Below are positions 39,263-61,610 of a DNA stretch of 64,000 bases, in pieces. Position 1 is the stretch's first letter; each line of letters starts with the position of its first letter. The stretch is from assembly GCA_017309275.1 (NCBI GenBank), contig JAFKLT010000036.1, positions 79,005-143,004 of the forward strand, read 5' to 3'. The notes under the pieces were generated by a model that saw only the letters and a program-made list of their open reading frames with translations, had not been told where the DNA came from and did not search any database. The position numbers were made by a program, and so were the translations under genes. This stretch comes from Sphingomonadales bacterium. Lineage in GTDB: Bacteria; Pseudomonadota; Alphaproteobacteria; Sphingomonadales; Sphingomonadaceae.

Positions 39263-39270
39263 AAAAAAAA

Positions 39271-39300: not shown

Positions 39301-39319
39301 ATCCGGGGCTGTTCAGATG

Positions 39320-42609: not shown

Positions 42610-42626
42610 CCTGCCCGTCGGGCAGG
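42610..42626 (+). other. Short perfect hairpin between two crotonase genes
   Basis: CCTGCCC-GTC-GGGCAGG begins directly after the stop codon of the first crotonase gene and ends before the GAAGGAG ribosome-binding site of the next. It has no T-tract. It may modulate translation or mRNA decay between the two genes. Confidence 0.45.
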
Positions 42627-42640
42627 CGAAGGAGACTATC

Positions 42641-43438: not shown

Positions 43439-43459
43439 TGGCGCGCGTGGACCGGCGGG

Positions 43460-44257: not shown

Positions 44258-44384
44258 TCGTCTCTCACTCCCGGTTTTGCCGCGATCTTGCCGCATATCC
44301 TGACAACTTCACAAAGACGAATATAACATCGCCGCGCCCCAATCTCGCATAGGACACGCATCTGCGATTGAAGGGAGGTTGAGT

Positions 44385-44405
44385 TTTGTGTAAGGTCGTC
44401 ACAAA
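44385..44405. promoter_or_regulatory. LysR-type operator (TTTGTG-N9-CACAAA)
   Basis: Perfect 6-bp inverted arms around a nine-base spacer, containing a T-N11-A core typical of LysR-family recognition sites. It lies 43-63 bp upstream of the LysR start and 128-148 bp upstream of the divergent crotonase start, the usual layout for auto-repression plus activation of the divergent gene. Confidence 0.62.
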
Positions 44406-44447
44406 TAGAGGGCCCGATAACAGGGAATCATGTGGAGAGGTGAACGG

Positions 44448-45416
44448 ATGTCCAATCTCGATCGTTTGATCCGCTTCTCGGTCGTTGCCGAGGAAATGTC
44501 ATTCAGCAAGGCCGCGCGGCGTCTCAACGTCGACCAGCCCTGGCTGTCGCGGCAGATTCAGCAGCTCGAAGCCCAGATGGGCTTTCCCCTTTTCGTGCGA
44601 AGCACGCGGCGGGTCAGCCTGACGGACGAGGGCGAGGCGCTTTTCGCCTCCGCGCACGAGCTTGCGGAAGCCGCCGAGCAATGCCGTCAGTCATCGCGCG
44701 ACCTGATGCGCATGCACAGTCAGACGCTCGTGCTTGGCGTCAATCCCTACACCTTCTGGGTTCCCGCGCGGAAGCTCGCGATCGAGACCTTCCAGGCCCG
44801 GCACCCGCGCGTGACGATCGATATCGTCAGCAATTACAGCGCGCGGCTGATATCGAAATTGCAGAAGCGGCTGATCGACGTCGCGCTTGTCGGGCAGCCC
44901 TGCGAATTTCCCGGGCTGGAGACGCTGATCCTCTATTCGAGCCCCGTGAGCCTGCTGGTTCCGCCTGGCGATCCGCTCGCCGGTCTCGGCAAGGTACCGG
45001 TGAGCGCGCTCGCGGGCCGCGAGATTCCGGTCACCAACCCCAAGCTCAATCCCGAGCGGTGGGACATGCTCTACAAACCCTTTTTCGACGCCGGCGCACA
45101 CCCGATGATCGTCAGTGAGGGGGAAACCGCGGTTCCCTTCTACGCACGCGACCGGGGTTTGCCGGTGCTGACCGTCGGCTGGCCGCACAGCGAACAGGGC
45201 GCGCTCGCGGATTTCATCCATCTCGATATCGAGGACGACGTACCGGTCGCGAAATATGCATTGGTGCGCCGCGAGGAACCCGCGCGTGGTCTGCTCGATC
45301 ATTTCTGGCAGACGGCCGAGCGCGTCGCGGCAGAATTCGAGGTGCCGCAGCCCTCGCTTCCGAAGCCTGTCGACAGATCGGTAGACCTCGCTCTGCAACA
45401 TGCCCTGGTTGCATGA
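44448..45416 (+). CDS. LysR-family transcriptional regulator
   Basis: 322 aa. The N-terminal winged HTH (LDRLIRFSVVAEEMSFSKAA, RRLNVDQPWLSRQIQQLEAQ) is classical, including the S-x-x-Q-x-x-LE ending. The effector-binding domain follows (TLVLGVNPYTFWVPARKLAI, VDVALVGQP), with an extended C-terminus of about 30 residues. ATG 44448 has GAGAGGTGAAC upstream; an ATG at 44430 is less likely. It is likely to control at least the divergent crotonase gene and perhaps the whole catabolic cluster in response to a CoA thioester or free acid. The alpha/beta hydrolase gene follows after 15 bp. Confidence 0.9.
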   Translation: MSNLDRLIRFSVVAEEMSFSKAARRLNVDQPWLSRQIQQLEAQMGFPLFVRSTRRVSLTDEGEALFASAHELAEAAEQCRQSSRDLMRMHSQTLVLGVNPYTFWVPARKLAIETFQARHPRVTIDIVSNYSARLISKLQKRLIDVALVGQPCEFPGLETLILYSSPVSLLVPPGDPLAGLGKVPVSALAGREIPVTNPKLNPERWDMLYKPFFDAGAHPMIVSEGETAVPFYARDRGLPVLTVGWPHSEQGALADFIHLDIEDDVPVAKYALVRREEPARGLLDHFWQTAERVAAEFEVPQPSLPKPVDRSVDLALQHALVA

Positions 45417-45431
45417 AGATCGGCTGAGGAA

Positions 45432-46337
45432 TTGCTGGCATATCCCGATAGTCCCGTTTTCGATATCGAAGGTCCCGACTGGTTTGCATCCGCGCTCGCG
45501 AAGGAGCCCGAACGCGGGACGTGCGAAGTGCTCGGGGCGGCGATCGAAACGCTCGCCTGGGGCGACCGGGGCAAGCCCGGCCTTCTCTTCCTGCACGGCA
45601 ACGGCGGTCATGCCGACTGGTGGCGTTTCATTGCACCCTTTTTCGCCGCGGACTTGCGGGTTGGCGCCATTTCCTGGTCGGGCATGGGGAGATCGGAATG
45701 GCGGACGAGCTATCCGCCCGAGGTGCATCTGGCAGAACTGCTTGCCGGGGCCGAGGCGACGGGACTGTTCGAGGGGCCGGGGCGGCCGTCGATCGTGGCC
45801 CACTCCTTCGGAAGCGCGATCGCACTGAAAGTGGCTGCGAGTCCCGATGGCGCACGCTTCGAGCGGCTGATCGTCGCCGACAATGGCGCACGGCCGCCGC
45901 GCGAGGATGCGTTCGAAAATCGAAAGCCGTGGACGAATCAGGGCTATGCCAGCCTCGATGAGGGCGCGGCGCGGTTCCGTTTGAGGCCCGAGCAACGGTG
46001 CGACAACGACTATCTCCTGGCCTTCATCGCCCGGCGTTCGCTCGCGCAGCGCGACGGCCGCTGGCACTGGTGTTTCGACCCCGACGCCGACCGCAGCCGG
46101 GGCGTCCCTTTCACGGCCCATTCGGGCGAGGTGATTGCCGCGGCCCAATGTCCGCTCGATTTTCTGTGGGGCGACCGTTCCTCGTTGGTTCCGGGCGAGG
46201 TGATGGCGGCGACGCGCGCGGTTGCGCCGCGCGGAACGCGCTTTGTGACGCTTCCCGATGCCGGACACCATCTGATGCTCGACCAACCGCTCGGCTTTGT
46301 CGCCGCGGTCCGGGCGCTCCTCGAGCCTAGGGTTTGA
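45432..46337 (+). CDS. Alpha/beta hydrolase
   Basis: 301 aa. The oxyanion-hole HGNGG (FLHGNGGHADWW), nucleophile elbow A-H-S-F-G (IVAHSFGSAIAL), a likely acid in FLWGDRSSLVP and the His in DAGHHLML are all in the expected order. The elbow's first position is Ala instead of Gly. A lid-like insert lies at about 165-220. Likely esterase, thioesterase or C-C hydrolase. The start is TTG 45432 with GAGGA just upstream. It follows the LysR gene by 15 bp, so probably one transcript, and its last 11 bp overlap the convergent SDR gene. Confidence 0.82.
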   Translation: MLAYPDSPVFDIEGPDWFASALAKEPERGTCEVLGAAIETLAWGDRGKPGLLFLHGNGGHADWWRFIAPFFAADLRVGAISWSGMGRSEWRTSYPPEVHLAELLAGAEATGLFEGPGRPSIVAHSFGSAIALKVAASPDGARFERLIVADNGARPPREDAFENRKPWTNQGYASLDEGAARFRLRPEQRCDNDYLLAFIARRSLAQRDGRWHWCFDPDADRSRGVPFTAHSGEVIAAAQCPLDFLWGDRSSLVPGEVMAATRAVAPRGTRFVTLPDAGHHLMLDQPLGFVAAVRALLEPRV

Positions 46338-47076
46338 TCATGCGCGTTCGCGGCGCCGTGAACGGTGGCCCGCCGAGCGAATGGCGCAGATTCTCCCCGC
46401 CGTCGATCGTCACCGTCGTCCCGGAAAAATAGACGCCATAGGCCGAGCAGAGGTAGAGCGCCGCCGCCACGACATCGTCGACCGTCCCGATCCGCCCGAG
46501 CGGGACCGTGTCGCCGGGATGAATGCCGCGCTGTTCAGCCAGTTCAAAGGCGGGGTCGTCCCGCCCTTCGATCATGCCGGTCGCAATGACGTTGCACCGT
46601 ATCGCATCCTCCGCCCATTCGACCGCAAGGCTGCGCGCGAGATTCTGGAGCGCCGCCGATGCAGCAGCCGTCACCGACGAGCCCGGCAGGCCAAGCTCGA
46701 CGGCCTCGGTCAGCATCAGGATCGATCCGCCACCCCGCGCCAGTTGCCGGCGCCGCGCGAACTCGGTCGAATAGTCGAATGCCGTGTCGAAGAGGCGGCT
46801 CATCACACTTCGCGCCTGCGCCAGCGGAATATTTTCGGCCGGTACAAGCGTCTTTTGCCAGATGCAGTTCACCAATATGTCGACGGGGCGTCCGACGCTT
46901 TCGAAGCCCGCGGCCGCGCGCTCGCCATCGGCGGCAATGAAGACATCACCGCCGAGTTCGGCAAACGCCGCCGCGAGGCCGCGCGAAACCGGATCGGCGC
47001 CGTCGGTCAGCAGGATCACCTTTCCGGCAAAGCTTCCGTCCGGGACGGGATAGGCGCGGGCTGCGGTCATGGTCAT
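46327..47076 (-). CDS. SDR-fold protein lacking the catalytic Tyr-Lys
   Basis: 249 aa with Rossmann and C-terminal SDR elements (VKVILLT-type strand, EWAEDAIRCNVIATGMIEG, TVTIDGGENLRHS). The glycine-rich motif is degraded (TDGADPVSRG in place of TGxxxGxG), the N-A-G motif is VNCIW, and the Y-x3-K pair is absent (GSSVTAAASAALQNLARSLA). NAD-dependent redox chemistry is therefore doubtful; a non-catalytic partner of the upstream SDR is possible. ATG 47076 overlaps the upstream stop (ATGA); GTG 47085 is an alternative. Last gene of the hydratase-SDR-SDR unit. Confidence 0.78.
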   Translation of the reverse strand: MTMTAARAYPVPDGSFAGKVILLTDGADPVSRGLAAAFAELGGDVFIAADGERAAAGFESVGRPVDILVNCIWQKTLVPAENIPLAQARSVMSRLFDTAFDYSTEFARRRQLARGGGSILMLTEAVELGLPGSSVTAAASAALQNLARSLAVEWAEDAIRCNVIATGMIEGRDDPAFELAEQRGIHPGDTVPLGRIGTVDDVVAAALYLCSAYGVYFSGTTVTIDGGENLRHSLGGPPFTAPRTRMIKP

Positions 47077-47921
47077 CCCATCCACAGGTTTTCGCGCTCA
47101 TAGGGCGAGACGAATTCGGGCTTCAGCACATCGCGGCGCAACCAGTCGCCGCCGTCGAGGATCAGGTTCGTGCCCGTGATATGGCGGGCAAAGGGCGAGC
47201 ACAGGAATGCCGCGGCGCGGCCGATTTCCTGCGCGCGCAACGGGCGCTGTGCGGGGATCGACTTTGCTCTTGGCCCTTCGGTTCCGGGGTCGAAGCCCGG
47301 AATGCCGGCGTGCGGATAATTGCCGATCACCAGGCCGTTGACGCGAACGCCGTGCCGCGCCCACTCGGCTGCGAGCGTCAGCGTCAAGTTCATCTGACCC
47401 GCTTTCGCCGCGGCTGAATGCGCGTCTCCCGGCAGGCCGAGCCAGACATAGCTTGCCAGATTGTTGACGATTGCGCCGGGCCGGCCGTCCAGCCGGCGAA
47501 AAAATTCCTGGCTGCAGAAAAATGTCCCGTCGAGTGCGATTTGGGTGACCGCGCGCCAGGCATTCGGGCTGATGCGCTCGGCCAGCAGCGGAAAGTTCGC
47601 GCCCGCATTGTTTGCGAGAAACGATACCGGGCCGGCCGTTCGTTCGATCCGTTCGAATGCGTCGCGCACCCTTTCGGGATGCCGCACGTCGAGGGCGACG
47701 GGCAGGGCGGAGAGTCCTTCATTGTCCAATCGACCGGCCACCTGCGTCAGCCTGTCGATGTCGCGGCCGGCGATCGCGACCGTCGCCCCGCAGCGTGCGA
47801 AGGCTTCGGCCATCGCCAGTCCGGTTCCGCTGCCGCCACCGGTCACCAGCGCGACCTGGCCGGCGAATATATCCGCCGGCAGCATCGGATCCGTCGCGGC
47901 GGGCGGTTCGGAAAAACTCAT
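47073..47921 (-). CDS. SDR oxidoreductase, 2,4-dienoyl-CoA reductase-like
   Basis: 282 aa. Cofactor motif VTGGGSGTGLAMAEAF and NNAGANF are intact. The active-site region reads GDAHSAAAKAGQMNLTLTLA: the Lys is kept but the usual Tyr is replaced, as in the dienoyl-CoA reductase (DECR) subfamily, where the motif is S-A-x-A-K-A-G and the Tyr comes from elsewhere. The C-terminal I-L-D-G-G-D-W block fits. It may reduce a dienoyl-CoA or oxidise a hydroxyacyl-CoA. It overlaps both neighbours (ATGA on each side), placing it between a hot-dog hydratase and the degenerate SDR. Confidence 0.83.
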   Translation of the reverse strand: MSFSEPPAATDPMLPADIFAGQVALVTGGGSGTGLAMAEAFARCGATVAIAGRDIDRLTQVAGRLDNEGLSALPVALDVRHPERVRDAFERIERTAGPVSFLANNAGANFPLLAERISPNAWRAVTQIALDGTFFCSQEFFRRLDGRPGAIVNNLASYVWLGLPGDAHSAAAKAGQMNLTLTLAAEWARHGVRVNGLVIGNYPHAGIPGFDPGTEGPRAKSIPAQRPLRAQEIGRAAAFLCSPFARHITGTNLILDGGDWLRRDVLKPEFVSPYERENLWMG

Positions 47922-48775
47922 GCGCTGCGCAGTTCGGCGCGTCCGTTTTTGAGGACCGTTACCCCGCGATCGGGAACATGGGCTTCGAAGGAAATGATAT
48001 CGCCGTCACGCCACAGGTCGACGACCAGCGTGTCGCCGGGGAAGACGGGCGCCGAAAAGCGGGTGGCAAGGCTTGCGAGCTGCCCGGGATTCCATCCGGT
48101 GAACCCCTCCACAACCGCGCGGCAGGCGATGCCGTAGGTGCAAAGGCCATGGAGGATCGGCCGGTCGAACCCCGCGCGCTTCGCCGCATCGGGATCGATA
48201 TGCAGCGGATTCATGTCGCCGCTCAGCCGGTAGATCAGCGCGAGGTCGGGGCGGGTTGGATAGGTCAGGCTCAGGTCGGGCGCGCGGTCGGGTACCTTGT
48301 GGGGGTCGGGTGCGCCTTCGCCCGGCGCGCCGCAGTGGCCGTCGGCGCGGGCAAAGGAGGTCGCGCGCACGGTCGCCAGCAATTCGCCCGTCGCGGTGTC
48401 GCGCAGGGCGGTTTCGGTGACGCACACCGCGCCCTTGTCGCCCTTGTCATAGATAGCGACGACATGGCCTTCGCCCGTAATTTCGCCCTCGGGCGGGATC
48501 GGCCTGTGCCAGACGATCGCCTGCTCGCCGTGCACCGAATACCGGTAATCGAAACCCAGCTGGGCCACGGTGACTCCGAGACCCCGGGTCAGGACGGCAG
48601 CGAGGGTCGGCATCACCTTCTGATCGACTTCGTGAACAAAGGGCAATTCGTTCCGATCGAGCGGATCCGACGCCATGCCGAGACCGAGCGCATAAAGAAT
48701 GGCATCGGTCGCCTTCCAGGACTTTTGTCCGCCCGAGCTCTTTTCTTGCAGCACCGCGGGATATTGGATCGGCAT
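47918..48775 (-). CDS. MaoC-like (R)-specific enoyl-CoA hydratase 2
   Basis: 285 aa with two hot-dog repeats. The C-terminal one has the hydratase-2 motif D-x-N-P-L-H (SGDMNPLHIDPDAAKRAGF) and HGLC. The N-terminal one begins with ILYALGLG and VMPTLAAVL, as in peroxisomal MFE-2 hydratase domains and 3-alpha,7-alpha,12-alpha-trihydroxy-cholestenoyl-CoA hydratases. It should produce (3R)-hydroxyacyl-CoA. ATG 48775 has a perfect AGGAGG. First gene of a three-gene coupled unit with two SDR genes. Confidence 0.9.
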   Translation of the reverse strand: MPIQYPAVLQEKSSGGQKSWKATDAILYALGLGMASDPLDRNELPFVHEVDQKVMPTLAAVLTRGLGVTVAQLGFDYRYSVHGEQAIVWHRPIPPEGEITGEGHVVAIYDKGDKGAVCVTETALRDTATGELLATVRATSFARADGHCGAPGEGAPDPHKVPDRAPDLSLTYPTRPDLALIYRLSGDMNPLHIDPDAAKRAGFDRPILHGLCTYGIACRAVVEGFTGWNPGQLASLATRFSAPVFPGDTLVVDLWRDGDIISFEAHVPDRGVTVLKNGRAELRSA

Positions 48776-48962
48776 ATCGGCCTCCTGCCTGTGTGATTTG
48801 TGATGACCTTTCATTATCGCTATCGGGGCAGAGGCAAGCCGTCCAGCGGCGCTTCGTGGGCAAATATGCCAATCCGGGCAGCGATCCGGTCGAACAGGCA
48901 CTAAAGCTGCGCGCCGCTTTGCTTTCTAGTCACCTATACAGAACAGAGAAAGGAAAGCCGGG

Positions 48963-49748
48963 ATGGTGCTGAATATCAGACGGGAAGGGCGCGTTGCGGT
49001 GCTGGAGCTCAACCGGCCGGACCGTCTCAATGCGCTGACCGGCGAGCTTCACGACGCCCTCAACGACGCGGTCGCGGGTGCGGCGCGCGACGATGGCGTG
49101 GGATGCGTGGTCGTGACCGGGGCGGGTCGCGCCTTTTGCGCCGGCGGCGACACCCAGTCGGGCGGACGCCGCGAGACCGGACCACGAAGCCAGGAGCAGC
49201 GCGTCGACACGATGGTGCACCACGCCGAGACGGTGAAATTGCTCCATATGATGCCGAAACCGACGCTAGCTATCGTCAATGGCGCCGCCGCGGGCGCTGG
49301 GCTTGCGCTTGCGCTTGCGTGCGACATGCGGATCGCCGCTGCCGATGCGATGATGACCACCGCTTATGTCAGGCTCGCGCTTTCGGGCGACTTCGGTTGC
49401 ACCTATTTCCTGACGCGGCTGGTGGGGCCCGCCATCGCCAGCGAACTGCTGTTCCTGAGCGAAAAGATCCAGATGGACCGGGCGGTGCAGCTGGGCCTGG
49501 TCAATCGGGTCGTACCCTCCGATGATCTGCTGGCTGAGGGAATGCGTATGGCGCACGCGCTTGCTGCGATGCCGCCGGTGACGTTGCGCCTGATGAAGCG
49601 CAATATAGCGGTCGCCTCCGGCGCGGGGTTCGACGAGATGATCGAACGCGAGGCCGCCGCGATGGTCCGCTGCACGAAGACGCAGGACGCCAAGGAGGCG
49701 CTGGCCGCGCGCCGCGAAGGGCGTCCCGCGGTCTTCGTGGGCTATTGA
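48963..49748 (+). CDS. Enoyl-CoA hydratase/isomerase-family protein (PaaG-like)
   Basis: 261 aa. Oxyanion-hole blocks AFCAGGDTQSGG and NGAAAGAGLALALACD are present. Neither classical catalytic Glu is in place (GAGLALA; AYVRLALSGDFGC), while the S-G-D Asp is at the PaaG position. The C-terminal helix LRLMKRNIAVASGAGF is usual for the family. ATG 48963 has GAAAGGAAAG. It is divergent from the MaoC-like hydratase unit across 187 bp and converges on the thiolase gene. Confidence 0.84.
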   Translation: MVLNIRREGRVAVLELNRPDRLNALTGELHDALNDAVAGAARDDGVGCVVVTGAGRAFCAGGDTQSGGRRETGPRSQEQRVDTMVHHAETVKLLHMMPKPTLAIVNGAAAGAGLALALACDMRIAAADAMMTTAYVRLALSGDFGCTYFLTRLVGPAIASELLFLSEKIQMDRAVQLGLVNRVVPSDDLLAEGMRMAHALAAMPPVTLRLMKRNIAVASGAGFDEMIEREAAAMVRCTKTQDAKEALAARREGRPAVFVGY

Positions 49749-49756
49749 TCGGGCGC

Positions 49757-50893
49757 CTACGCCTTTTCGAGAATATGGACCGCCGAGCAGGTTCCCAGCC
49801 CGACGACATGAGCAAGGCCCATCCGCGCGCCTTCGACTTGTCGCTCGCCCGCCTGACCGCGCAGATGCAGGCTTAGCTCATAGAGATTGGCGACCCCGGT
49901 GGCGCCGATCGGATGTCCCTTGGACAGGAGGCCGCCCGAGACGTTGACGGGAATACGCCCGCCGAGCGCGGTGGCGCCGCTGTCGATCATGTCATTGGCT
50001 TCGCCCGCTCCGCATAGCTGCAGATTTTCATAGTGGAGCAGTTCGGCCGTGGCGAAACAGTCGTGCAATTCGACGAGGTCGAGATCCTTGGCCTCGATGC
50101 CGGCCATCTCGTAAGCGCGCTGCGCAGCGATCTGCGTCGCGCTGTTGATATCGGGCATCTGCGGATTGCGCTGTTGCCAGGGATCCGACGCGAGCGCCGA
50201 CGCGCGGATCCGGATCGCGCGGTCCATCAGGCCGAGTTCGCGAACTTTCTTTTCGGACATCAAAACCACGGCAGCCGCCCCGTCGACGTTGATCGAGCAC
50301 ATCAGCTTGGTGTTGGGATAGGCGATCATCTCCGCTTCCATCACCATCTCAAGCGGGGTTTCCTTGCGCAGCACGGCCTTCGGATTCATCGTCGCATGAT
50401 GGTGGTTCTTGACCGAGACCTTGGCGAATTGCGCAAAGCTGGTGCCATATTTGGCGGCATATTCGCGGCCGGCCTCGGCGAAGGTAGCGGGCATCGAGGT
50501 CGATCCCATCAGCCCCTCGATCGGGATCGAGGCCTGCCGCGCGGCACCAAGCATCCCCATCCCGGTCATCTGCTCAACGCCGACCGCCAGCGCGATATCA
50601 TAATCGCCCGTCCGTACCGCCATCCACGCCTCGCGGACCGCCGTGGCTCCGGTGGCGCAGGCGTTGGACACATTGGCGATCGGAATTCCGGTCTGGCCGA
50701 TCTGCTGGAAGATCTTCTGGCCGACCATCGTCTGGAAGACACAGCCGCAATAGGCGGTCTGGACGTCGTGAACGGTGATCCCGGCATCGTCGAGTGCGCC
50801 GAGGACCGCTTCGGCACCCAGCGAGGCGGGCGTCCGATGCGGATAGCGTCCAAAGGCGATCATTTCGATTCCGGTGATATAGACATCGCTCAT
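49757..50893 (-). CDS. Thiolase, SCP-2 type, with intact active site
   Basis: 378 aa. The acyl-accepting Cys is present in NVSNACATGATAVREA, and the C-terminal motifs ELHDCFATAELL and GLLSKGHPIGATG carry the catalytic His. It should cleave a 3-oxoacyl-CoA with CoA. This contrasts with the Cys-less paralog at 36735. A DUF35 gene lies 15 bp upstream on the same strand, so the two probably form a complex. ATG 50893 has AAAGG upstream. Confidence 0.9.
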   Translation of the reverse strand: MSDVYITGIEMIAFGRYPHRTPASLGAEAVLGALDDAGITVHDVQTAYCGCVFQTMVGQKIFQQIGQTGIPIANVSNACATGATAVREAWMAVRTGDYDIALAVGVEQMTGMGMLGAARQASIPIEGLMGSTSMPATFAEAGREYAAKYGTSFAQFAKVSVKNHHHATMNPKAVLRKETPLEMVMEAEMIAYPNTKLMCSINVDGAAAVVLMSEKKVRELGLMDRAIRIRASALASDPWQQRNPQMPDINSATQIAAQRAYEMAGIEAKDLDLVELHDCFATAELLHYENLQLCGAGEANDMIDSGATALGGRIPVNVSGGLLSKGHPIGATGVANLYELSLHLRGQAGERQVEGARMGLAHVVGLGTCSAVHILEKA

Positions 50894-50908
50894 TGAATTG
50901 ACCTTTCG

Positions 50909-51343
50909 TCAGTCGGCCGCAAGCGGCTCGAAGAAATGGCTGATATAGGCGTTTCCGTCGGCATCGCGGCGGCCGAGCGCGTCGTCGAAGACGATCCGGA
51001 CGCGCATCGCACCGTCGATCCGGTCCGCGTCGAAAGGGACGCCGCGCAGATTGCCCTTTAGCGACGGGCCATCGTCGATATCGACGACGGCCGAAATGAA
51101 CGGCACGGCGGTGCCCGGAAAGCTGCGATGGACGATCGAGTAGCTGTGCAGCGTGCCTTCATATTTCGGCTCATGCGCATCGAAGCCCTCGCGCGACCCG
51201 CAGCGTGCGCAGGCGAGCCGTTCGGGTTCGAGGAACATCGTGCCGCAGGATTTGCATTTGAGAAACGACAGGCGCGGCTCGGGCCCGTCGAGATGGATAT
51301 AGGAGGCCGCGGGGAGCGGCGGAGAGGCTGGCGTGTCGGTCAT
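50909..51343 (-). CDS. DUF35 zinc-ribbon/OB-fold protein, partner of the SCP-2 thiolase
   Basis: 144 aa. Zinc ribbon Cys30, Cys33, Cys45 and Cys48, then the OB-fold strands (KYEGTLHSYSIVHRSFPG, PFISAVVDIDDGPSLKGNL, MRVRIVFDD). TGGAGC lies before the ATG at 51343. It sits between the acyl-CoA dehydrogenase fusion and the thiolase genes with gaps of about 15-20 bp, so all three are probably one operon. It probably acts as acyl-CoA-binding or structural partner of the thiolase. Confidence 0.86.
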   Translation of the reverse strand: MTDTPASPPLPAASYIHLDGPEPRLSFLKCKSCGTMFLEPERLACARCGSREGFDAHEPKYEGTLHSYSIVHRSFPGTAVPFISAVVDIDDGPSLKGNLRGVPFDADRIDGAMRVRIVFDDALGRRDADGNAYISHFFEPLAAD

Positions 51344-51363
51344 GTCAAAGCTCCATTTGCCAA

Positions 51364-53653
51364 TTAGCCGGCACTTGCCGGGCGAAGACCGCCAAGTGCG
51401 TCGGCGGTCCGGGGGGCGGGGGTTTCGTCGTCGGCCCAGGGGTCACGCGGCATGCCAAGCACGCGTTCGGCGAGCTTGTTGCGGTGGATCTCGCTCGTTC
51501 CGCCGCCGATCGTCGACGCGCGCGTCGAAAGCCAGGCACGCGTCCAGCGCGTTTCTTCCAGCCCGGACGCGCCCTGTGCATCGACCATCAGTTCGAACAA
51601 TTCCTTCTCATTCTCTTGCCCGACGAGCTTCGAGATCGAGCCCTCGGCGCCGGGATTGTCACCCGCGGTGAAGCGCGCCACGTTGCGCAGACCGTGCAGC
51701 TTGACGATCTGGGTCGTGGCCCAGGCGTCGGCGAAGCGAGCGCGCAGGTCGTGGTCGATCCCGTGCTGCGCCTCGCGCCCGGCAATCGTACGCGCTATTC
51801 GCGCGACCGTTTCGGCCTGCGCCGCCTGCGAGCCGAGAAAATTGGTGAGATGTTCGCCGACCATCGTCGTGCGATTGATCCGCCAGCCGTCGTTCATCGG
51901 TCCGACGATATTATCCAGCGGCACGCGCACATTGTCGAAGAACACTTCGTTGAAATGATAATCGCCGTTGTTCCTGCGAATGGGGCGCACCTCGAGCCCA
52001 TCGCTGTCCATCGGGATCAGAACCACGCTGATGCCCGCATGCTTGGGATGCAGCGGGCCGGTGCGGATCAGCGCGTACATCCAGTCGGCCATCTGCGCCT
52101 GGCTCGTCCAGATCTTGTGGCCGTTGATGACCAAGTCGTCGCCATCGACTTCGCCGCGCGTCCGCAGCGATGCAAGATCGGACCCGGCGCCGCGTTCGGA
52201 AAATCCGCCCGCCCACAGGATGTCGGCGCGCCTTGTCGGGGCAAGCAGCTGCTTTTGCCTTTCGGACCCGTGCGCGATCAGCGTCGGACCAACAAGCATC
52301 AGGCCGCGATTTCCCGGGAGCGGCGGCAGGCCGCGCCGCGTCATTTCGGCATAATAGAGAACTTGCTGGGTGAAGCTTGCCTCGCGGCCCCCCGCCGTCT
52401 TCGACCAGTGCAGGGCCGCCCAGCCGGCATCGGCCAGTTCGCCTTGCCAGGCTCTGCGTTCGGCCATTCCCGCTCGCTTGAGAGCTTTGGCCCGCTCGAC
52501 GGTCACATTCTCGTCGAGCCACGCGCGAAAGGGCTCGATGAACCCCTCGTCTTCGCCCGACGGGATGAAGCCGAGGTCCATGCCCGCAAACTGGTCCGCG
52601 CGCGATCGCGCCCCCGAATTTGCTGCCTGCAGCGCATTCTCTCCCAGCAGGCGCAAATTCTGCGTGAAGCTGCCCAGCGTCAGGTTGCAATGTTTCGCGC
52701 GGCGCATCAGCAGATGAAGATCATGTTCCCATGTGCAGCCGATCGCTCCGTGCATCTGGACAGCCTCACCCGTTACCCACATGGCGGCGCGGTTCGTCTG
52801 GGCTTTTGCAAGCCGGGCCGCGTCGGGGTCGGGGACGCCGTCGTTGATCGACCGGACGGCCCCCCACAGCGCCGACCGCGCGCCCTCGACCGCGATCAGG
52901 CAATCGGCAAGCTTTTGCTTTACCGCCTGAAAACGCCCGATCGGCTGGCCGAACTGTTCGCGTTGCAGCGTGTAGTCGCGCGTCATATCGAGCGCGGCCT
53001 GGGCAACGCCGAGCGCTTCGGCGGCAATCAGCGTCTGCACGATCGACATCAGGCGCCGGATCGGGAAATCCGAAACGCCTTTGGCGGGCGCACCGTCGAA
53101 CTCGACCCGCGCCAGCCGGCGCGTCGGGTCGAGGCTGGGAATCTCGGTTCGCGTAACCCCTCCGAGCGAAAGATCGATGCTCCACCAGCGGCCGCTTGCG
53201 GGAACGAGCACCACTTCGATCGCCGCACCGTCGACCATATCGGGGATGATTCCGCTGATCAGGCAGTCATCGCCGGTATCTCCCGGCACGAGGGTGAGCG
53301 CTGCGGCAGGCCCCTCCGCTGCCGAGAGCCCGGCGCCGACAACGATCTCGCCGGCCGCCAGCGCCTGTCCAAGACGGGTCGCATGCGGCGTCGCCGACGA
53401 TCCCAGAATATGCGCCGCGGCAAAGGCCGTCGTGATCGGGATCGGCGCGGGCGACCGCTTCTTCGGCGAGGGTCATGTCGACGCCGCCGTGGGTGCCGGG
53501 AAGCGTTATGCCGAGAAACCCGAGCTCCGCGAGGTTCGACCAAAGGGCGCCGTCGATCGGCGGGCCGCCCTCGGCTGCATGACGGGCCGCGTCGCGCGTG
53601 CTGAGCAGGCGGCCCAGTATGTGGCTGATCTCTTCTTGATCGGGCGTGAGCAT
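51364..53653 (-). pseudogene. Fused tandem acyl-CoA dehydrogenase, interrupted by an apparent +1 frameshift
   Basis: The gene would encode about 762 aa: a small-subunit-type dehydrogenase (starting MLTPDQEEISHILGRLL) fused to a full large-subunit-type dehydrogenase (from about DEGFIEPFRAWLDENV, with GGFSERGAGSDLASLRTRG and STIGGGTSEIHRNKLAERVLG). The first 68 codons are in one frame (to MTLAEEAVA). From PIPITTAFAAAHILG onward everything is in a second frame to the end. Removing one base from a GGG run at 53449-53451 (plus strand) restores a single frame. AGGAAA precedes the ATG at 53653. It is either a recent inactivating mutation, a sequencing error or a slippage site. Confidence 0.78.
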
Positions 53654-53898
53654 CAAATTTCCTAGCGAAGCCGCAAATATGCTCGCAGCGTTGTCGAAGC
53701 TTCGTGCTCGCGTCCAAGATGAAGTCGCCGACCGGCATGACCCGAATGACATAAAAGGAAATCGGACAGCGATTGCGCCTGGAAATGGCCTGTTCGCCCG
53801 CTTGATGGGAAAACGGCAGATGCGGCGGCGCGATAGACATTGGTCCGCGCCACCGACTCTCGGCCATCGTCCGGTGCATAATAAGGGCCAGCGTCTAG

Positions 53899-55086
53899 AT
53901 GCAGATTGAATTCACCCGACAGGAACAGGCGTTTCGCAGCGAAGTTCGCAGCTGGCTGCGAGCGAACGTGCCCGCAGGCGAGCGGCCGATCCATAGCGAC
54001 CGCAACCTCGATATTCGCGAGTTCGACCTCGAGTGGCAGCGCAAGCAGTTCGATGCGGGCTGGGCGGGGATTTCGTGGCCGAGCGAATATGGCGGCCGCG
54101 GAGCGAGCCTGATCGAGCAACTTATCTGGCACGAGGAATATGCTCGCGCCGGGGCGCCGCGGGCAGGATCCTGCTTCGTCGGTCTCAGTCACGCCGGGCC
54201 GACGCTCATCGCGCGCGGCACGCCCGAACAACAGGCCTTTCACCTGCCACGAATTCTCCGCGGCGAAGCCGTCTGGTGTCAGGGATTTTCGGAGCCGGGC
54301 GCAGGGTCGGACCTTGCGGCGCTCAGCACCCGCGCCGAGATCGATGGCGATCATCTCGTCGTCAACGGGTCGAAGATCTGGACCAGCTATGCATCGGTCG
54401 CCGACTATCAGGAGCTTTTATGCCGGACCGAAGCGGGCGGGCGAAAGCATAGCGGCATCAGCTGGGTCATCTGCCCGATGGATACGCCCGGGATCGAACT
54501 GCGCCCGATCCTCACGATGGTCGGGCCGAACGATTTCCACTTTTGTCAGGTATTTTACAACGACGTGCGCATCCCGCTCGCCAATGTCGTCGGTGAAATC
54601 AACGACGGCTGGGGCGTAGCCAACGCGACGCTGGGCTTCGAGCGCGGGACTGGGTTCATTGCCGATCAGATCCAGAACAGCGAGCTGGTCGAAAGGCTGA
54701 TCGCGATGGCGCGGGAGCGACGCGGCCTCGACGGCCTGTCCGCCGCCATCGACGACGGCGATTTCGCGTCCCGCCTCGCCATGTCGCGGGCCGAGATGGC
54801 GGGCGTCCGGGCCATGACCTATGCCACCGTCTCGCGGGCCGCAAACGAGAATCCCGGACCCGAAGGCTCGCTGGTGAAGCTGTTCTTCTCCGAAGCTTCG
54901 CAGCGGCTGCGCCGGCTGGGGGTCGACCTGCTCGGCCCGGAAGCGCTCGAGCTATCGTCGGACGCCGGCCTGACAACGCCCTATTTGCGATCCTACGCGG
55001 CGTCGATCGGCGGCGGTACATCCGACGTACAGCGTAACATCGTCGCCGAGCGTGTGCTCGGTTTGCCGCGAGGGCCGCGGCCATGA
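53899..55086 (+). CDS. Acyl-CoA dehydrogenase, large subunit of a heteromeric pair
   Basis: 395 aa. N-terminal helical domain (EFTRQEQAFRSEVRSWLRAN), flavin-binding block WCQGFSEPGAGSDLAALSTRA, NGSKIWTSYASVADYQ, and C-terminal SIGGGTSDVQRNIVAERVLGLP. FAD and the acyl-CoA site should be formed with the next protein. The stop overlaps the start of the small-subunit gene (ATGA). It is divergent from the fused, frameshifted dehydrogenase gene. AAGGG lies 12 bases before the ATG, a long but acceptable spacing. Confidence 0.9.
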   Translation: MQIEFTRQEQAFRSEVRSWLRANVPAGERPIHSDRNLDIREFDLEWQRKQFDAGWAGISWPSEYGGRGASLIEQLIWHEEYARAGAPRAGSCFVGLSHAGPTLIARGTPEQQAFHLPRILRGEAVWCQGFSEPGAGSDLAALSTRAEIDGDHLVVNGSKIWTSYASVADYQELLCRTEAGGRKHSGISWVICPMDTPGIELRPILTMVGPNDFHFCQVFYNDVRIPLANVVGEINDGWGVANATLGFERGTGFIADQIQNSELVERLIAMARERRGLDGLSAAIDDGDFASRLAMSRAEMAGVRAMTYATVSRAANENPGPEGSLVKLFFSEASQRLRRLGVDLLGPEALELSSDAGLTTPYLRSYAASIGGGTSDVQRNIVAERVLGLPRGPRP

Positions 55087-56120
55087 TCGACATGGAGATG
55101 TCTTCTGAACAACAGCAGATCGTCGATTCGGTCCGCTCCTTGCTGACCGACGTTTTGCCTTATGAGCGTTTCGTGCCGCGGCCGACGCCGGTTCCGAACC
55201 AGGATCGCGCGCAATTTCCGAAGCTGGGCGAGCTTGGCGTTTTCGGGCTGGGCCTTTCCGAAGCCGATGGCGGTGTCGGCTATTCGATGGTCGAAGAGGT
55301 CCTCGTGGCACGCGAACTCGGCCGGTTCCTCGTTTCCCCCACCGCAATCGCCACGATGATCGGCGTCCATGTCGCGCAGGCGGCGGGCGACCCGGAGCTT
55401 GCAAGGCGGCTGATGCAGGGCGGCACGCCGGTGGCTCCCGCACTCGCTTTCAATTCCGCCAAGAATCACTTTGCCGGCGAATATCATCTTGTCGACGGCG
55501 ACCGGGCCGAATGGGCGCTTGCATGGAGCGAAGCCGGCGTCGCTCTCGTGGGCTTCGATGACTGGTCGGAGCTAGAGGCCGTTCCTTCGATCGACAGCAC
55601 GCTTTGGCTCGCGCGCGTTCGATTCAACGGCCTGATGCCGGACTTGCGGGTTGTGGCGGCCAAGGGACTGTGGCGCCGCGCCCAGTTACTGGTCTGCGCC
55701 TATCTGACCGGGGTTGCGGAGGCCGCGCTCGACGATTCGGTCGAATATGCGAAGGTGCGCGAGCAGTTTCAGCAGCCTATCGGCGGGTTCCAGGCGATCA
55801 AGCACCGCTGCGCGGACATGCTCGCGCGCTCGTCGGTCGCGTGGAACAGCACGATCTTTGCTGCGCTGACGGATGTCGTGGAAGGACAGGATGCCGACTT
55901 CCAGGCCATCGCCGCTAAACTGCTGGCCAGCGACGCGGCGTTCAGGAATGCCGCGATCAATATCCAGAATCACGGCGCTTATGGATTTACTGGCGAGCAT
56001 CACGCCCATCTCTTTGTGAAGCGCGCCCATATGCTCGACCGCTTCGGCGGCGATGCGACCTATCAGAAACAGCGCATGCTCGGGGCGAAGCCGCCGTCGC
56101 AGGAGTCGGTCTCATTATGA
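55083..56120 (+). CDS. Acyl-CoA dehydrogenase, small partner subunit
   Basis: 345 aa. The C-terminal helical domain is recognisable (YAKVREQFQQPIGGFQAIKHRCADML, NHGAYGFTGEHHAHLFVKRA), but the middle FAD domain is reduced and lacks the SEPxxGSD block, as in small subunits of alpha2beta2 dehydrogenases. Translationally coupled to the large subunit (ATGA). The arrangement large-small is the reverse of the minus-strand pair, where the small subunit comes first. An acyl-CoA ligase gene follows after 40 bp in the same operon. Confidence 0.87.
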   Translation: MIDMEMSSEQQQIVDSVRSLLTDVLPYERFVPRPTPVPNQDRAQFPKLGELGVFGLGLSEADGGVGYSMVEEVLVARELGRFLVSPTAIATMIGVHVAQAAGDPELARRLMQGGTPVAPALAFNSAKNHFAGEYHLVDGDRAEWALAWSEAGVALVGFDDWSELEAVPSIDSTLWLARVRFNGLMPDLRVVAAKGLWRRAQLLVCAYLTGVAEAALDDSVEYAKVREQFQQPIGGFQAIKHRCADMLARSSVAWNSTIFAALTDVVEGQDADFQAIAAKLLASDAAFRNAAINIQNHGAYGFTGEHHAHLFVKRAHMLDRFGGDATYQKQRMLGAKPPSQESVSL

Positions 56121-56160
56121 TCGGTCAGCGAGCCTGGACAAAACAGGAAGGGAATATCGA

Positions 56161-57675
56161 ATGACGACCATCGCGGATCAGATCGCGGCCCATTTCGCGA
56201 GCTTGCCGATGCTTGAGCCCGACAGCATCGCCGTGCGCTATGGCGACACGCAGACGAGCTGGGGCCAGCTCGGGCAGGTCGGCGACGGCATCCTTGCGAG
56301 CCTTGACGCCGCGGGTGTGCCCAAGGGGTCCTCGATCGGCTGGATCGCCCGCAACGATCCCGCGCTTCTCGGAGCCCTGATCGGCCTGATCAAGGGCGGG
56401 TACACGGTATCGCCAGTCAATCCGCATCAGCCGGTGGCGAAGATCGCCGAACAGTTGCGGGCGCTCCGGATGGCAGCCAGCGTCGGCGTCGCGCAGGATT
56501 TCCATCCCGAAGTGCGTGAAGCCCTTGCCGATACCGGCGGGGTCGGTGTGGTGATCGACGCACATGCGACGCCGGCCGCGCAGCTGCTCAGAACCGGTGA
56601 CGTCGTCGGCCCGGGACCGTTCCGAAGGCTCGATGATGCGATCGTCGAGCGTCTGACCAGCGGGACGACGGGCGAGCCCAAGCGCATTCAGGTGCCGGCG
56701 GCAACCTTCCAAAAGGCGCTGGAACTCGGCGCCCGGTCGGAAAAGAACAAACAGGCCGAACCGCTCAAGGTCAAACGCTCGCCGGGCATCCTGCTCACCA
56801 CATTCTCGCATTCGGGAGGGCTCTGGGGCGCCCTTCTGGCTCTCAATCAGGCGCGCCCGGTCGAACTGTTCGACAAGTTCGACGTCGAGCGCTGGGCCGA
56901 TGCGGTCGAGCGCGGTCAGGTCAAGGCCGCCAATCTGGTGCCATCGATGATCACTATGGTCCTCGAACAGGGGGTTCTGCCCGAAAAGATCAAGAGCCTG
57001 CTCGTCATTCGCGCGGGAACCGCACCGCTCGATCCCGAGACGCAGCGCTTGTTCGAGGAGACGTACGGGATTCCGGTCCTGACCGAATATAGCGCTTCTG
57101 AATTCATGGGCGGCATCGCTGGATGGTCGCTTGCCGATCACAAGGCCTATGGCGAATCCAAGCGCGGCGCCGCGGGTACGCTGCGCCCCGACATGCAGGT
57201 CAAAATCACCGACATCGAGACGGGCGAAGAACTGGAGCGCGGCCAGATCGGCATTCTCAACCTCAAATCGCCGCGCATCGGTCCAGATTTTATCAAGACC
57301 ACAGACCTTGCGTCGTTTGACACCGACGATTTCCTTTGGATCCACGGCCGGGCCGATGAAGCGATTAACCGTGGTGGGTTCAAGATCCTGCCAGAGAAGG
57401 TCGCCGAGACGCTGCGGCTGCACGAGGCGGTGCGCGAGGCCGGTATTCTGGCAGTCAGGGACAGTCGGCTCGGCCAGGTCCCGATCGCGGTAGTCGAGAT
57501 TGTCGACGGGGCCCGGACGAGCGAGCAGGAGCTCAAGGATTTCGTCCGGTCGCAAATGCCGGCCTATATGGTTCCGACCGCGATCGAACTGGTCGATGCC
57601 TTGCCGCGAACGCTATCGATGAAGGTCGACCGGCCAGCGCTGCGCGCGCTCTTCAAAGACAAATATCAGTTCTAG
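56161..57675 (+). CDS. Acyl-CoA synthetase (AMP-dependent ligase)
   Basis: 504-aa ANL-superfamily ligase that activates a carboxylic acid to its CoA thioester via an acyl-adenylate. The AMP-binding P-loop is L165-T-S-G-T-T-G-E-P-K, the A5-like motif is LTEYSASEFMGG, and FLWIHGRADEAINRGGFKI is the hinge region with the A8 Gly-rich loop. The C-terminal catalytic Lys is in LPRTLSMKVDRPAL. The N-terminal domain is short, similar to FadD3/FadD-type ring-degradation ligases. GGAAGGG lies before ATG 56161. Co-directional with the dehydrogenase pair and downstream genes to 61595. Confidence 0.9.
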   Translation: MTTIADQIAAHFASLPMLEPDSIAVRYGDTQTSWGQLGQVGDGILASLDAAGVPKGSSIGWIARNDPALLGALIGLIKGGYTVSPVNPHQPVAKIAEQLRALRMAASVGVAQDFHPEVREALADTGGVGVVIDAHATPAAQLLRTGDVVGPGPFRRLDDAIVERLTSGTTGEPKRIQVPAATFQKALELGARSEKNKQAEPLKVKRSPGILLTTFSHSGGLWGALLALNQARPVELFDKFDVERWADAVERGQVKAANLVPSMITMVLEQGVLPEKIKSLLVIRAGTAPLDPETQRLFEETYGIPVLTEYSASEFMGGIAGWSLADHKAYGESKRGAAGTLRPDMQVKITDIETGEELERGQIGILNLKSPRIGPDFIKTTDLASFDTDDFLWIHGRADEAINRGGFKILPEKVAETLRLHEAVREAGILAVRDSRLGQVPIAVVEIVDGARTSEQELKDFVRSQMPAYMVPTAIELVDALPRTLSMKVDRPALRALFKDKYQF

Positions 57676-57725
57676 CCATTCGGAAAACGGACGGTTTCAC
57701 CTACAGCATCTGGATAAGGGACATT

Positions 57726-59003
57726 ATGGCAACGCAACCGCAGGCCGATACCCCGCGCGATATCGATTCGACGATCAGCGACGAAGATATCGAACGGGCC
57801 AAAGCACAGATCGGCATTCCGCAGCGCCGTTTCGTGAAGGCGTTCAATGAAACCGCAACGACCGACGGTATGCGACATTTCGCTTTCGGGCTGGTAGGCG
57901 ACGACAATCCGCTCTGGCACGATCCCGAATATGCGAAGAATACACGCTGGCGTGGGCCCGTCGCGCACCCTCTGTTCATCCAGACGATGGGGATCAACGA
58001 ATGCCCACCCTATTCGCCCGAGCACAAGGCGCTATTTCGCGGGCTGTTCCGCGGGATCGGCAAATATCTGGCCTCGACTACCTGGACTTTCTTCAAGCCG
58101 ATTTTCCCCGGCGACGCCGCTTATGAGGAATATGTCACCTCGGACATTCAGGTGAAGCAATCGAGCTTTTCGGGAGGACGCTCGGTCATCGACAGCTACC
58201 GCTCGCTCTATGTCGACGCCGCGGGCACGCCGCTGGCAACGCGCGAACATTCGCTCGTCAATGCGGAGCGCAAGGGGTCGAAGGAAAAGGGAAAATATGC
58301 CGACCTTGCGCGGCACACCTACACGCCCGACGACATTGCGCGGATCGACGAGGTTTATGCCGCCGAGCAGCGGCGCGGGGCGACGATCCGCTATTTCGAG
58401 GACGTCGAAGTCGGCGAGGCGCTGACCCCGGTCGCGAAGGGACCATTGTCGATGGTCGATCTGATCTGTCGTCATATCGCAACGGGGATGGCCGACGGAT
58501 ATGACATCGGTCCGCTGCGCTATGGCTGGCGGGCGCGAGGCAAGATCGCGCCCTTCTACACGCCCGACGCCTGGGGCGTGCCGCAGCCGCAGCAGCGCGT
58601 GCACTGGGACGACAGTCGCGCGCAGGATCTCGGCCTGCCCGGCGGATATGATTATGCGATCATGCGTTTTGCGTGGCTGACGCATCTACTCACCAACTGG
58701 ATGGGCGATGACGGCTGGATCGAAAGCTATGGTGTCGAGCTGCGCCAGTTCAATTTCGTGGGCGATTTCCACATCATCGGCGGCAGCGTGACGGGCAAGT
58801 CGATCGAGAACGGCCGTCCGACCGTCGAGATCGTGCTCGAAGCGACGAACCAGCGCGGCGACATCACCACGCGCGGAAAGGCGAAAATTCTGCTCCCCTC
58901 GCGCGAATATGGCGCGATCATCCTGCCCCAGGCGCCGATCGAGCTTGTCCGCCGCGGCGCGAATATGATGGCCGAGGCGGCCGCGCGCAAAGCGGCGGGC
59001 TGA
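57726..59003 (+). CDS. MaoC-like dehydratase with FAS1-type N-terminal hot-dog
   Basis: 425 aa. The N-terminal part (residues about 25-190) is a MaoC_dehydrat_N/FAS1 dehydratase-like hot-dog (FAFGLVGDDNPLWHDPEYAKNT, GDAAYEEYVT). The C-terminal part (about 225-400) is a second hot-dog (IRYFEDVEVGEALTPVAKG, NFVGDFHIIGGSVTGK). It should hydrate an enoyl-CoA or dehydrate a hydroxyacyl-CoA. The classical D-x-N-P-x-H appears as DDNPLWH in the N-terminal repeat. AAGGGAC precedes ATG 57726. 50 bp after the ligase gene, 12 bp before the SDR gene. Confidence 0.85.
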   Translation: MATQPQADTPRDIDSTISDEDIERAKAQIGIPQRRFVKAFNETATTDGMRHFAFGLVGDDNPLWHDPEYAKNTRWRGPVAHPLFIQTMGINECPPYSPEHKALFRGLFRGIGKYLASTTWTFFKPIFPGDAAYEEYVTSDIQVKQSSFSGGRSVIDSYRSLYVDAAGTPLATREHSLVNAERKGSKEKGKYADLARHTYTPDDIARIDEVYAAEQRRGATIRYFEDVEVGEALTPVAKGPLSMVDLICRHIATGMADGYDIGPLRYGWRARGKIAPFYTPDAWGVPQPQQRVHWDDSRAQDLGLPGGYDYAIMRFAWLTHLLTNWMGDDGWIESYGVELRQFNFVGDFHIIGGSVTGKSIENGRPTVEIVLEATNQRGDITTRGKAKILLPSREYGAIILPQAPIELVRRGANMMAEAAARKAAG

Positions 59004-59015
59004 GACAAGAAGGAC

Positions 59016-59921
59016 ATGTCCATGGTTGATAAACTGCGGTTCGACGACGAAGTCGTCATCGTAACGGGTGCGGGCAGCGGGCTCGGGCGCGCCTACGCAC
59101 TCGAACTCGCCGCGCGCGGGGCAAAGCTGGTCGTCAACGACCTCGGCGGATCGACCGAGGGGAAGGGTGCCGACGCGTCGGCAGCGTCGTGCGTGGTCGC
59201 CGAAATCGAGGCCGGGGGCGGCGAGGCGGTGGCAAGCTTCGACAGCGTTGCGACACCTGCGGGCGGAAAGGCGATCGTCGATGCGGCGCTCGATAAATGG
59301 GGCCGACTCGATGCCCTGATCTCCAACGCGGGCATACTGCGTGACCGCAGCTACGCCAAGCTCGATCTGGACGAAGCCCGGTCGGTCATCGACGTGCATC
59401 TTTGGGGCGGCGGTTTTTACGTCGCGCAGCCGGCCTTCGCGGCGATGAAGGAAAGCGGGCGGGGCGGCCGGATTCTGCTGACCACCTCTGCCTCCGGGCT
59501 GCTCGGTAATTTCGGCCAGGCGAGCTATGGGGCCGCGAAAATGGGTCTCGTAGGCCTGATGCGAACCTTGCAGATCGAGGGCGAGAAGGCCGGGATCAAG
59601 GTGAATGCGCTGGCGCCGATCGCCGGCACCCGCCTGACGGGCGCGCCCGTCGACGACAATGCGCCCAAAGGGCCGGGTAAGGTTGCGCCCATCGCGGTCG
59701 CGCTGGCACACGCCCAATGCCCGACGAACGGCGAGATCTATATGGCGGGCGCCGGCTGGTATTCGCGGGTGATGATCGGCGTTACCGAGGGCTGGGTCTC
59801 GCCCGACGCGACGGCCGAGACGATCCTCGCCAACTGGGACAAGGTCTCCGACGCATCCGCCTACAGCGAGCCGCGGAGCGCTGGCGATATCAGCACGATC
59901 ATGCGAAGGATCACCGGATGA
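59016..59921 (+). CDS. SDR dehydrogenase, MFE-2/HSD17B4-like (3R)-hydroxyacyl-CoA type
   Basis: 301 aa. TGAGSGLGRAYALELAARGA, NDLGGST and SNAGILRD are the cofactor and structural motifs, and the active site S-x(12)-Y-x3-K is intact (TTSASGLLGNFGQASYGAAKM). NDLGG after strand 2 and NAGILRDRSYAK are signatures of the dehydrogenase part of peroxisomal multifunctional enzyme 2, which oxidises (3R)-hydroxyacyl-CoA. It follows the dehydratase gene by 12 bp, so the two steps are probably coupled in metabolism. Confidence 0.9.
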   Translation: MSMVDKLRFDDEVVIVTGAGSGLGRAYALELAARGAKLVVNDLGGSTEGKGADASAASCVVAEIEAGGGEAVASFDSVATPAGGKAIVDAALDKWGRLDALISNAGILRDRSYAKLDLDEARSVIDVHLWGGGFYVAQPAFAAMKESGRGGRILLTTSASGLLGNFGQASYGAAKMGLVGLMRTLQIEGEKAGIKVNALAPIAGTRLTGAPVDDNAPKGPGKVAPIAVALAHAQCPTNGEIYMAGAGWYSRVMIGVTEGWVSPDATAETILANWDKVSDASAYSEPRSAGDISTIMRRITG

Positions 59922-59942
59922 TCCCTTCAGGAAAGACGGTCG

Positions 59943-60722
59943 ATGACTGACAGCATAGGAATGGACGTCACAGGGGCAGTAGCGGTCATCACCCTCAACC
60001 GTCCCGATCGCCATAATGCGATGGACAATGCGATGAGCGCGGCCTTTGGCGAAGCGATCTCGGCTGCTCAAGACGATCCCGAGGTGCGCGCCATTCTGCT
60101 GCGAGGCGAAGGCCAATCCTTTTGCACCGGCCGGGACACCGCGGCGCTCGGCGTCCGCGCACCCGGCGTCAGCGATTTTGCGCATGTCAGCAAGAGCCAG
60201 AAGCGGAAGTTCCAAATCCTCGACAGCCAGAAGCCGTTCGTTGCCGCGATCCGGGGCTATGCGATCGGAGGCGGGTGCGAACTGGCTTTGCAGTGCGACA
60301 TCCGCGTCGCATCCGAGACGGCGAAATTCTCGCTCCCCGAAATCGACCATGGCATCATCACCGACGGTGGTGGATCGGTGATTACAGCCGCTGTCGCCGG
60401 TGCATCGCGGGCCAAATATCTGCTGATGACGGGCGAACGCATCGACGCGGCGCAGGCGCTGGCCTGGGGCATGGTCGACTTCGTCGTCGCCGATGAAAAT
60501 CTCGACGCGCGGGCGCTCGAAATCGCGAGCAAGATCGCCGCGCGCCCGCCGATCCATGTCGCCATGGCCAAGCAACTGATCGACGGCGTGCACGGTGACC
60601 AGATACGCCGCGGTATTCGCGAGGAACTCGTCGCCATATCGGCGCTCTACAAGACCGAGGATCGGCAGGAAGCACGCGCTGCGCGCGCGGAAAAGCGCGA
60701 TCCTGTTTTCAAAGGACTTTGA
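59943..60722 (+). CDS. Enoyl-CoA hydratase with both classical catalytic Glu
   Basis: 259 aa. Unlike the four other crotonase-fold proteins in the cluster, it keeps GGGCELALQCD and FSLPEIDHGI, the two Glu-bearing motifs of true hydratases. Oxyanion-hole block SFCTGRDTAALG is also intact. It should add water to a trans-2-enoyl-CoA giving the (3S)-hydroxy product. Start ATG 59943 has CAGGAAAGA upstream. The next gene begins four bases after its stop. Confidence 0.88.
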   Translation: MTDSIGMDVTGAVAVITLNRPDRHNAMDNAMSAAFGEAISAAQDDPEVRAILLRGEGQSFCTGRDTAALGVRAPGVSDFAHVSKSQKRKFQILDSQKPFVAAIRGYAIGGGCELALQCDIRVASETAKFSLPEIDHGIITDGGGSVITAAVAGASRAKYLLMTGERIDAAQALAWGMVDFVVADENLDARALEIASKIAARPPIHVAMAKQLIDGVHGDQIRRGIREELVAISALYKTEDRQEARAARAEKRDPVFKGL

Positions 60723-60725
60723 CCG

Positions 60726-61595
60726 ATGGCGCTTGCCGAACCCTTTGCCGTCGATCATCCGTTTCTGCCCGCCGACACGTTCAAGGACGATGTCATCCTC
60801 GTGACGGGTGGTGGCACCGGGCTCGGGAAGGCGATGGCGCAGATGTTCGCACGCCATGGAGGCCGGATCGCGATCGCGAGCCGCAAGGAAGAGCACCGCG
60901 CGGCGGGCGTTGCCGCGATCGAAGCGCTCGGCGGCGTAGCCATTGGAGTGGCGCTCGACATTCGCGACCCCGATCAGGTGAAACGTGCCTTTGACGAAAT
61001 CGAAGCCGCGTTGGGGCCGGTCACGATCCTGATCAACAATGCCGCCGGTCGCTTCATGGCGCCCGCTGAGGACATCACGCCCAATGGTTGGCGCGCGGTC
61101 ACCCAGATCGTTCTCGATGGCACGTTCTTCTGTTCGCAGGAACTCCATCGGCGCCGGTTGGCTGCCGGCGGCACCGGTGCCATCCTAAACATCGGCGCGA
61201 CTTTCGCATGGACCGGCGGTCCAGGTTCGTCGCATTCGGCCGCAGCGAAGGCCGCGGTCACCAATCTCACCCAGACGCTTGGCGTCGAATGGGCGATCGA
61301 CGGGGTGCGGATCAACACAATCGCGCCCGGTTATTTCCCGCATGACGATACCGCCGCGCATATGAAGGGCGACTGGTCGGGCGAGGAAAAGCGGGCGAAG
61401 CAGATGCCGGCGGGCCGCGTCGGCCGGTTGCAGGAACTCGCTTGGTCGGCTGTCTTCCTTTGTTCGCCTTACGCCTCCTACATCACGGGCCATACGCTGG
61501 TGGTGGACGGCGCGAACTGGCTCCGTCATCGAGCCTCCAGCGCGCCCGATTTCGTGCCCGTTCGCGAATGGGCGCGGAAAAGCCCGGGCGGCTGA
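60726..61595 (+). CDS. SDR oxidoreductase, 2,4-dienoyl-CoA reductase-like
   Basis: 289 aa, similar in size and motifs to the SDR at 47073: VTGGGTGLGKAMAQMFARHG, NNAAGRF, and SSHSAAAKAAVTNLTQTLGVEW, where the SDR Tyr is replaced but the Lys is kept. C-terminal VVDGANWLRHR. DECR-type enzymes reduce 2,4-dienoyl-CoA in unsaturated fatty acid or ring degradation. It is the last gene of the plus-strand operon 53899-61595 and converges on the MFS gene with 15 bp between stops. Confidence 0.84.
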   Translation: MALAEPFAVDHPFLPADTFKDDVILVTGGGTGLGKAMAQMFARHGGRIAIASRKEEHRAAGVAAIEALGGVAIGVALDIRDPDQVKRAFDEIEAALGPVTILINNAAGRFMAPAEDITPNGWRAVTQIVLDGTFFCSQELHRRRLAAGGTGAILNIGATFAWTGGPGSSHSAAAKAAVTNLTQTLGVEWAIDGVRINTIAPGYFPHDDTAAHMKGDWSGEEKRAKQMPAGRVGRLQELAWSAVFLCSPYASYITGHTLVVDGANWLRHRASSAPDFVPVREWARKSPGG

Positions 61596-61610
61596 CGCCG
61601 GCTTCGTGCC

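Follow-up and report, generated by a model that had tools for sequence, protein, structure and literature searches.

The question raised by this locus is why an acyl-CoA dehydrogenase gene, with a small-type and a large-type unit fused, does not read through in one frame on the minus strand at 51364..53653 of the window (the whole 64,000-nucleotide stretch of DNA that was analysed). Sequence comparison with relatives identified it as a disrupted fused gene. The upstream reading frame (53267..53653, minus strand) consists of 128 codons and a TGA, beginning at ATG 53653. It is dehydrogenase-like for about 65-68 codons, up to a GGG run at 53449-53451; agreement with the relatives extends over the first ~65 codons, and the remainder is out of frame, ending at the TGA that forms codon 129 (53269-53267). 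Beyond the GGG run the dehydrogenase homology resumes in a different frame, which is open for 702 codons to a stop at 51364. The first listed start in this second frame, GTG 53289, gives a downstream open frame of 641 aa (51364..53289, minus strand) that covers what is left of the first unit together with the second. In Pfam searches the first fragment contained a partial acyl-CoA dehydrogenase N-terminal domain (profile positions 23-67 of 113), and the second contained two C-terminal-domain stretches, one N-terminal domain and one middle domain, and thus corresponds to the remainder of a first unit plus a second. Two dehydrogenase units in one open frame, as present in intact relatives, are absent in the window allele owing to the lesion. 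The original prediction had described a two-unit fused gene whose frame breaks at the GGG run after 68 codons; this break, near 53450, is real, homology continues in the other frame, and both units were seen in the window frames.

The nature of the break was determined by MAFFT alignment and gap placement against Sphingopyxis macrogoltabida, with S. bauzanensis as outgroup. A single extra base in an otherwise perfect gene had been proposed, and a one-base insertion at the GGG run is ruled out by the alignments with both species. The window has a net 23 bases fewer at this run than the plasmid of S. macrogoltabida, its closest relative, and alignments with S. bauzanensis and the Sphingopyxis MAG L011 give the identical 23-base gap. 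The deletion site was mapped to 53449..53459 (minus strand), with the GGG run at the deletion junction. Of the gap placements scored over bases 120 to 259 of the gene, two came out best, with 16 mismatches in the compared stretch, and lie between 53451 and 53449; the next ones have 17 mismatches. The gene is not perfect apart from the gap either: the count of flanking changes varies with the chosen placement; the two best leave four base changes within ~9 bases next to the gap, and those ranked after them leave five. At the four altered bases S. macrogoltabida (L090) and S. bauzanensis (L089) agree. Four or more changes in 9 bases have a probability of about 4e-6 at the window-branch rate (26 changes in 1923 bases), a value calculated for one chosen place and left uncorrected. 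The clustering of these four changes beside the gap suggests that they and the gap probably arose as one complex deletion. A search of the window, the S. macrogoltabida locus and the G068 stretches for sequence that could have templated the altered bases returned only scattered 11-13-base matches, and within 800 bases in the window no template match of at least 9 bases was found besides the lesion site itself.

With respect to the frame, a net loss of 23 bases is equivalent to the gain of one, which explains the one-base reading. At the lesion the two nearest relatives read EVIAAEALGRIVAPIP, and the window has EEAVARA, after which the frame shifts. The lost segment is present in 7/7 alphaproteobacterial relatives examined, and by alignment also in two actinobacterial fused proteins and in both small subunits encoded in the window. 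Since the segment is common to the relatives, the proposed removal of one base does restore the frame, but about 8 residues would still be absent. The locus has what characterizes a pseudogene by deletion: compared with intact orthologs it is short of 23 bases net, which is no multiple of three, and it has a stop at codon 129.

The seven alphaproteobacterial relatives (L009, L010, L011, L012, L013, L090 and L092) represent S. macrogoltabida, S. bauzanensis, the Sphingopyxis MAG L011, Sphingobium Sx8-8, Hyphomonas johnsonii, a Hyphomonadaceae MAG and G441. A single open frame runs through both units in six of them, the exception being MAG L011, which is broken elsewhere; the frame break of the window is conserved in none (0/7). 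The fused form is therefore the normal state of this gene, not a special feature as had been hinted. As a finding that would refute it, the original prediction had named orthologs that begin in the second frame and lack an N-terminal extension. This was checked, and the N-terminal part stands in all seven relatives, where it carries 23 bases more than in the window. In contrast to the disrupted window allele, plasmid NZ_CP009430.1 of S. macrogoltabida 203 encodes an intact ortholog of 770 aa (WP_054734878.1) within an 806-codon open frame spanning both units, with 98% protein identity to the window downstream of the lesion. The same protein is encoded on plasmid NZ_CP013345.1 of strain 203N, and the two strains are identical across the 2.5 kb compared. 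The neighbour genes on both sides of the dehydrogenase are the same in S. macrogoltabida and the window, and positions 36159..64000 align to the 422-kb plasmid with 93.2% identity over 27.8 kb; in the window, however, a tRNA-Cys and an integrase gene are close to this block. Within 51500-52499 the identity rises to 98.4-99.4% in two half-kilobases, compared with ~95% in the adjoining sequence and 93.2% block-wide; recombination is perhaps the source.

Because the gene is intact in the closest named relatives, the disrupted gene is an ordinary broken gene in a Sphingopyxis-type bacterium. In our judgement, the cause is very probably a complex deletion that recently abolished the function of this gene, within a cluster for the catabolism of bulky acyl-CoAs. 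The main competitor, to which we give a small share of the probability, is a local mis-assembly or collapse that would leave the gene intact in the organism. The genome is a draft assembly in 121 contigs, and false breaks can occur in records of this very gene: the copy in the Sphingopyxis MAG Bin6 (L011) is broken at 4753 and 6334 by short losses in base runs, which are probably sequencing errors. Compared with S. bauzanensis (L009), MAG L011 has nine indels in 11.9 kb, seven of them single-base and six in short runs, and at least two of the nine disrupt its copy of the fused gene. The window lesion, being 23 bases with adjacent substitutions, does not look like such a run-length base-calling error, and the 23-base pattern across the junction was found once in the genome. 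The rest of the block speaks against mis-assembly as well. BLAST opens 13 gaps across the 27.8 kb aligned with the S. macrogoltabida plasmid, and 12 are intergenic or at gene ends (36253, 36284, 36295, 39261, 39301, 39308, 39320, 56104, 59002, 59016, 60723 and 63268), three of which (39261, 39320 and 59002) coincide with stop codons. According to the gene table of the relative, the indel at 53450 is the sole one inside a gene body; for this count the minus-strand frame 58686-61148 was treated as spurious, as it has no Pfam match and three plus-strand genes lie there. The one-base indel at 56104 changes the final codons of the small-subunit gene 55083-56120, whose S. macrogoltabida counterpart is longer (a 1080-base CDS).

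Two further readings would keep the locus functional. In the one, programmed ribosomal frameshifting, raised earlier as slippage, would link the overlapping frames by a +1 shift near the run of three C. It is ruled out for practical purposes, with a probability close to nil: none of the relatives examined needs a frameshift here, all encoding the protein in frame, the run coincides with the deletion junction, and the shifted product would still be ~8 residues shorter than the relatives' proteins. In the other, which we consider highly improbable, the downstream open frame would be a working shorter gene after N-terminal loss. It does offer 641 aa open from GTG 53289 and moderate constraint on the window branch, but in the product the first unit would have no N-terminal domain, and all six intact alphaproteobacterial relatives reach upstream of GTG 53289. 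The constraint was estimated over the 641 codons after the lesion, polarised with S. bauzanensis and with 9 ambiguous changes excluded. The window branch has 18 synonymous and 8 nonsynonymous changes, and the S. macrogoltabida branch has 19 and 3. The nonsynonymous share is higher on the window branch (8:18 versus 3:19) but not significantly so (Fisher P 0.19), and relaxed selection there is thus suggestive at most. Judged from these substitutions, the rest of the disrupted gene looks still constrained; either the lesion is recent, or the nonsynonymous excess is chance. A single, probably recent event, as originally proposed, is supported, and we return to the complex deletion as the preferred reading.

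The surrounding genes give an indication of the pathway involved. On the same strand lie a ChsH2-type Zn-ribbon/OB-fold protein (50909..51343, minus strand; PF12172 and PF01796) and a thiolase-family protein (49757..50893, minus strand). The block 36159-64000 contains genes for acyl-CoA dehydrogenases, MaoC and crotonase hydratases, SDRs and thiolases, together with an acyl-CoA synthetase, a LysR regulator and transporters, some of these names being taken from the annotation of the relative. Two split acyl-CoA dehydrogenase pairs are included: a divergent pair at 53899..56120 on the plus strand (large subunit 53899-55086, small subunit 55083-56120), and a second pair at 39320..41754 on the minus strand (small 40525-41754, large 39320-40642; starts uncertain). 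The halves of the disrupted gene resemble the separate genes of these two pairs, as the original prediction had noticed. By its annotation, the gene setting appears to be as in pathways shortening branched or steroid side chains, and the fused gene putatively belongs to the breakdown of bulky fatty or steroid-like acids. Upstream of the block, positions 24186-35434 carry a tRNA-Cys followed by a tyrosine integrase, a TrwB/TraD-type coupling protein and a TrwC-type relaxase, and the catabolic block common to the S. macrogoltabida plasmid begins at 36159, after the relaxase region. The two together resemble a conjugative or mobilizable element that has integrated and carries the pathway. One open frame at 33376-34719 combines a polymerase-beta-type nucleotidyltransferase match (below the Pfam cut-off) with a HEPN domain, and is like a joined MNT-HEPN toxin-antitoxin pair.

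The fused gene is rare. A match at E up to 1e-150 was obtained in 4/80 genomes of the genus, and a match at E up to 1e-120 in 2/397 genomes drawn evenly from the family, its own genome being included in both counts. It is also found in Sphingobium and Hyphomonas. The other loci in the set of 80 matching loci are mostly mycobacterial, with about 34-37% identity. Frames were opened for L009-L014, L081, L086 and L087, and also for L016 and L026. The three mycobacterial loci opened (L014, L016 and L026) have one frame each of >700 codons, L081 matches the large half only, and for L087 there was no long frame at the place examined. A relative on a Roseovarius plasmid (L100) is a split pair, and L091 (G085) seems to be the MAG copy L011.

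Phylogenies of the two halves were built to compare the fused proteins. In the large-half tree (21 rows, row L008 being the same gene as winL1), the seven alphaproteobacterial fused rows, including the window, form one group with support of 100/100, four actinobacterial fused rows form a separate group (100/99), and a fused protein on a Mycobacterium avium plasmid (L102) falls outside both. A single clade of all fused rows is disfavoured in this tree (p-AU 0.012), this grouping having already been inspected in an earlier tree before the test. In the small-half tree (15 rows, only 3 of them split) a single fused clade is not rejected (p-AU 0.48). An alphaproteobacterial fusion independent of the actinobacterial FadE34-type one, with the subunits joined more than once, is a tentative and somewhat doubtful proposal.

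FadE34 and CasC, the latter from Rhodococcus jostii RHA1, are single two-unit chains. The fadE34 gene presumably sits near HsaA, HsaD and HsaC genes, as at the mycobacterial locus L014, where these three lie close by and score above the NCBIfam cut-offs; the specific steroid-ring gene models were applied to four window proteins only. The mycobacterial relatives share with FadE34 (ChsE3)/CasC the tandem arrangement of a small-type and then a large-type unit in one chain. FadE34/ChsE3-like proteins have about 36% identity to the window gene; the two fused groups are separate in the large-half tree. A literature search on FadE34 as a fused acyl-CoA dehydrogenase gave no match. Two articles state that the substrates which ChsE3/FadE34 and CasC dehydrogenate are steroid CoA esters whose side chain has five carbons, and that ChsE4-ChsE5 and ChsE1-ChsE2 are heterotetramers (PMC6678751, PMC6273163). 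These two complexes and Tcur3481/Tcur3483 (PDB 6wy8) contain the same two kinds of subunit, encoded however by two genes instead of one.

Taken as a recent complex deletion, the lesion can be accounted for as follows. The ancestral product would have been an ordinary two-unit, FadE34/ChsE3-like acyl-CoA dehydrogenase putting a double bond into a bulky acyl-CoA. About 200 bases into the gene, a deletion amounting to 23 bases net would then recently have taken a segment common to the relatives out of the first unit's N-terminal domain and put the rest out of frame. From the normal start, translation would stop at codon 129, and no full-length enzyme would be made. We infer that the deletion is present in the organism and not just in the assembly, and that the gene is probably null; the neighbouring split dehydrogenase pairs, or nothing, may replace the lost step.

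For the reading of single genomes, this locus means that a net loss of 3n+2 bases can mimic a one-base insertion when one sequence is considered by itself, and that slippage should be proposed only after comparison with a close relative. As for the organism itself, the strain is predicted to lose one step of dehydrogenation in a pathway for a bulky acyl-CoA, if no paralog covers this step.
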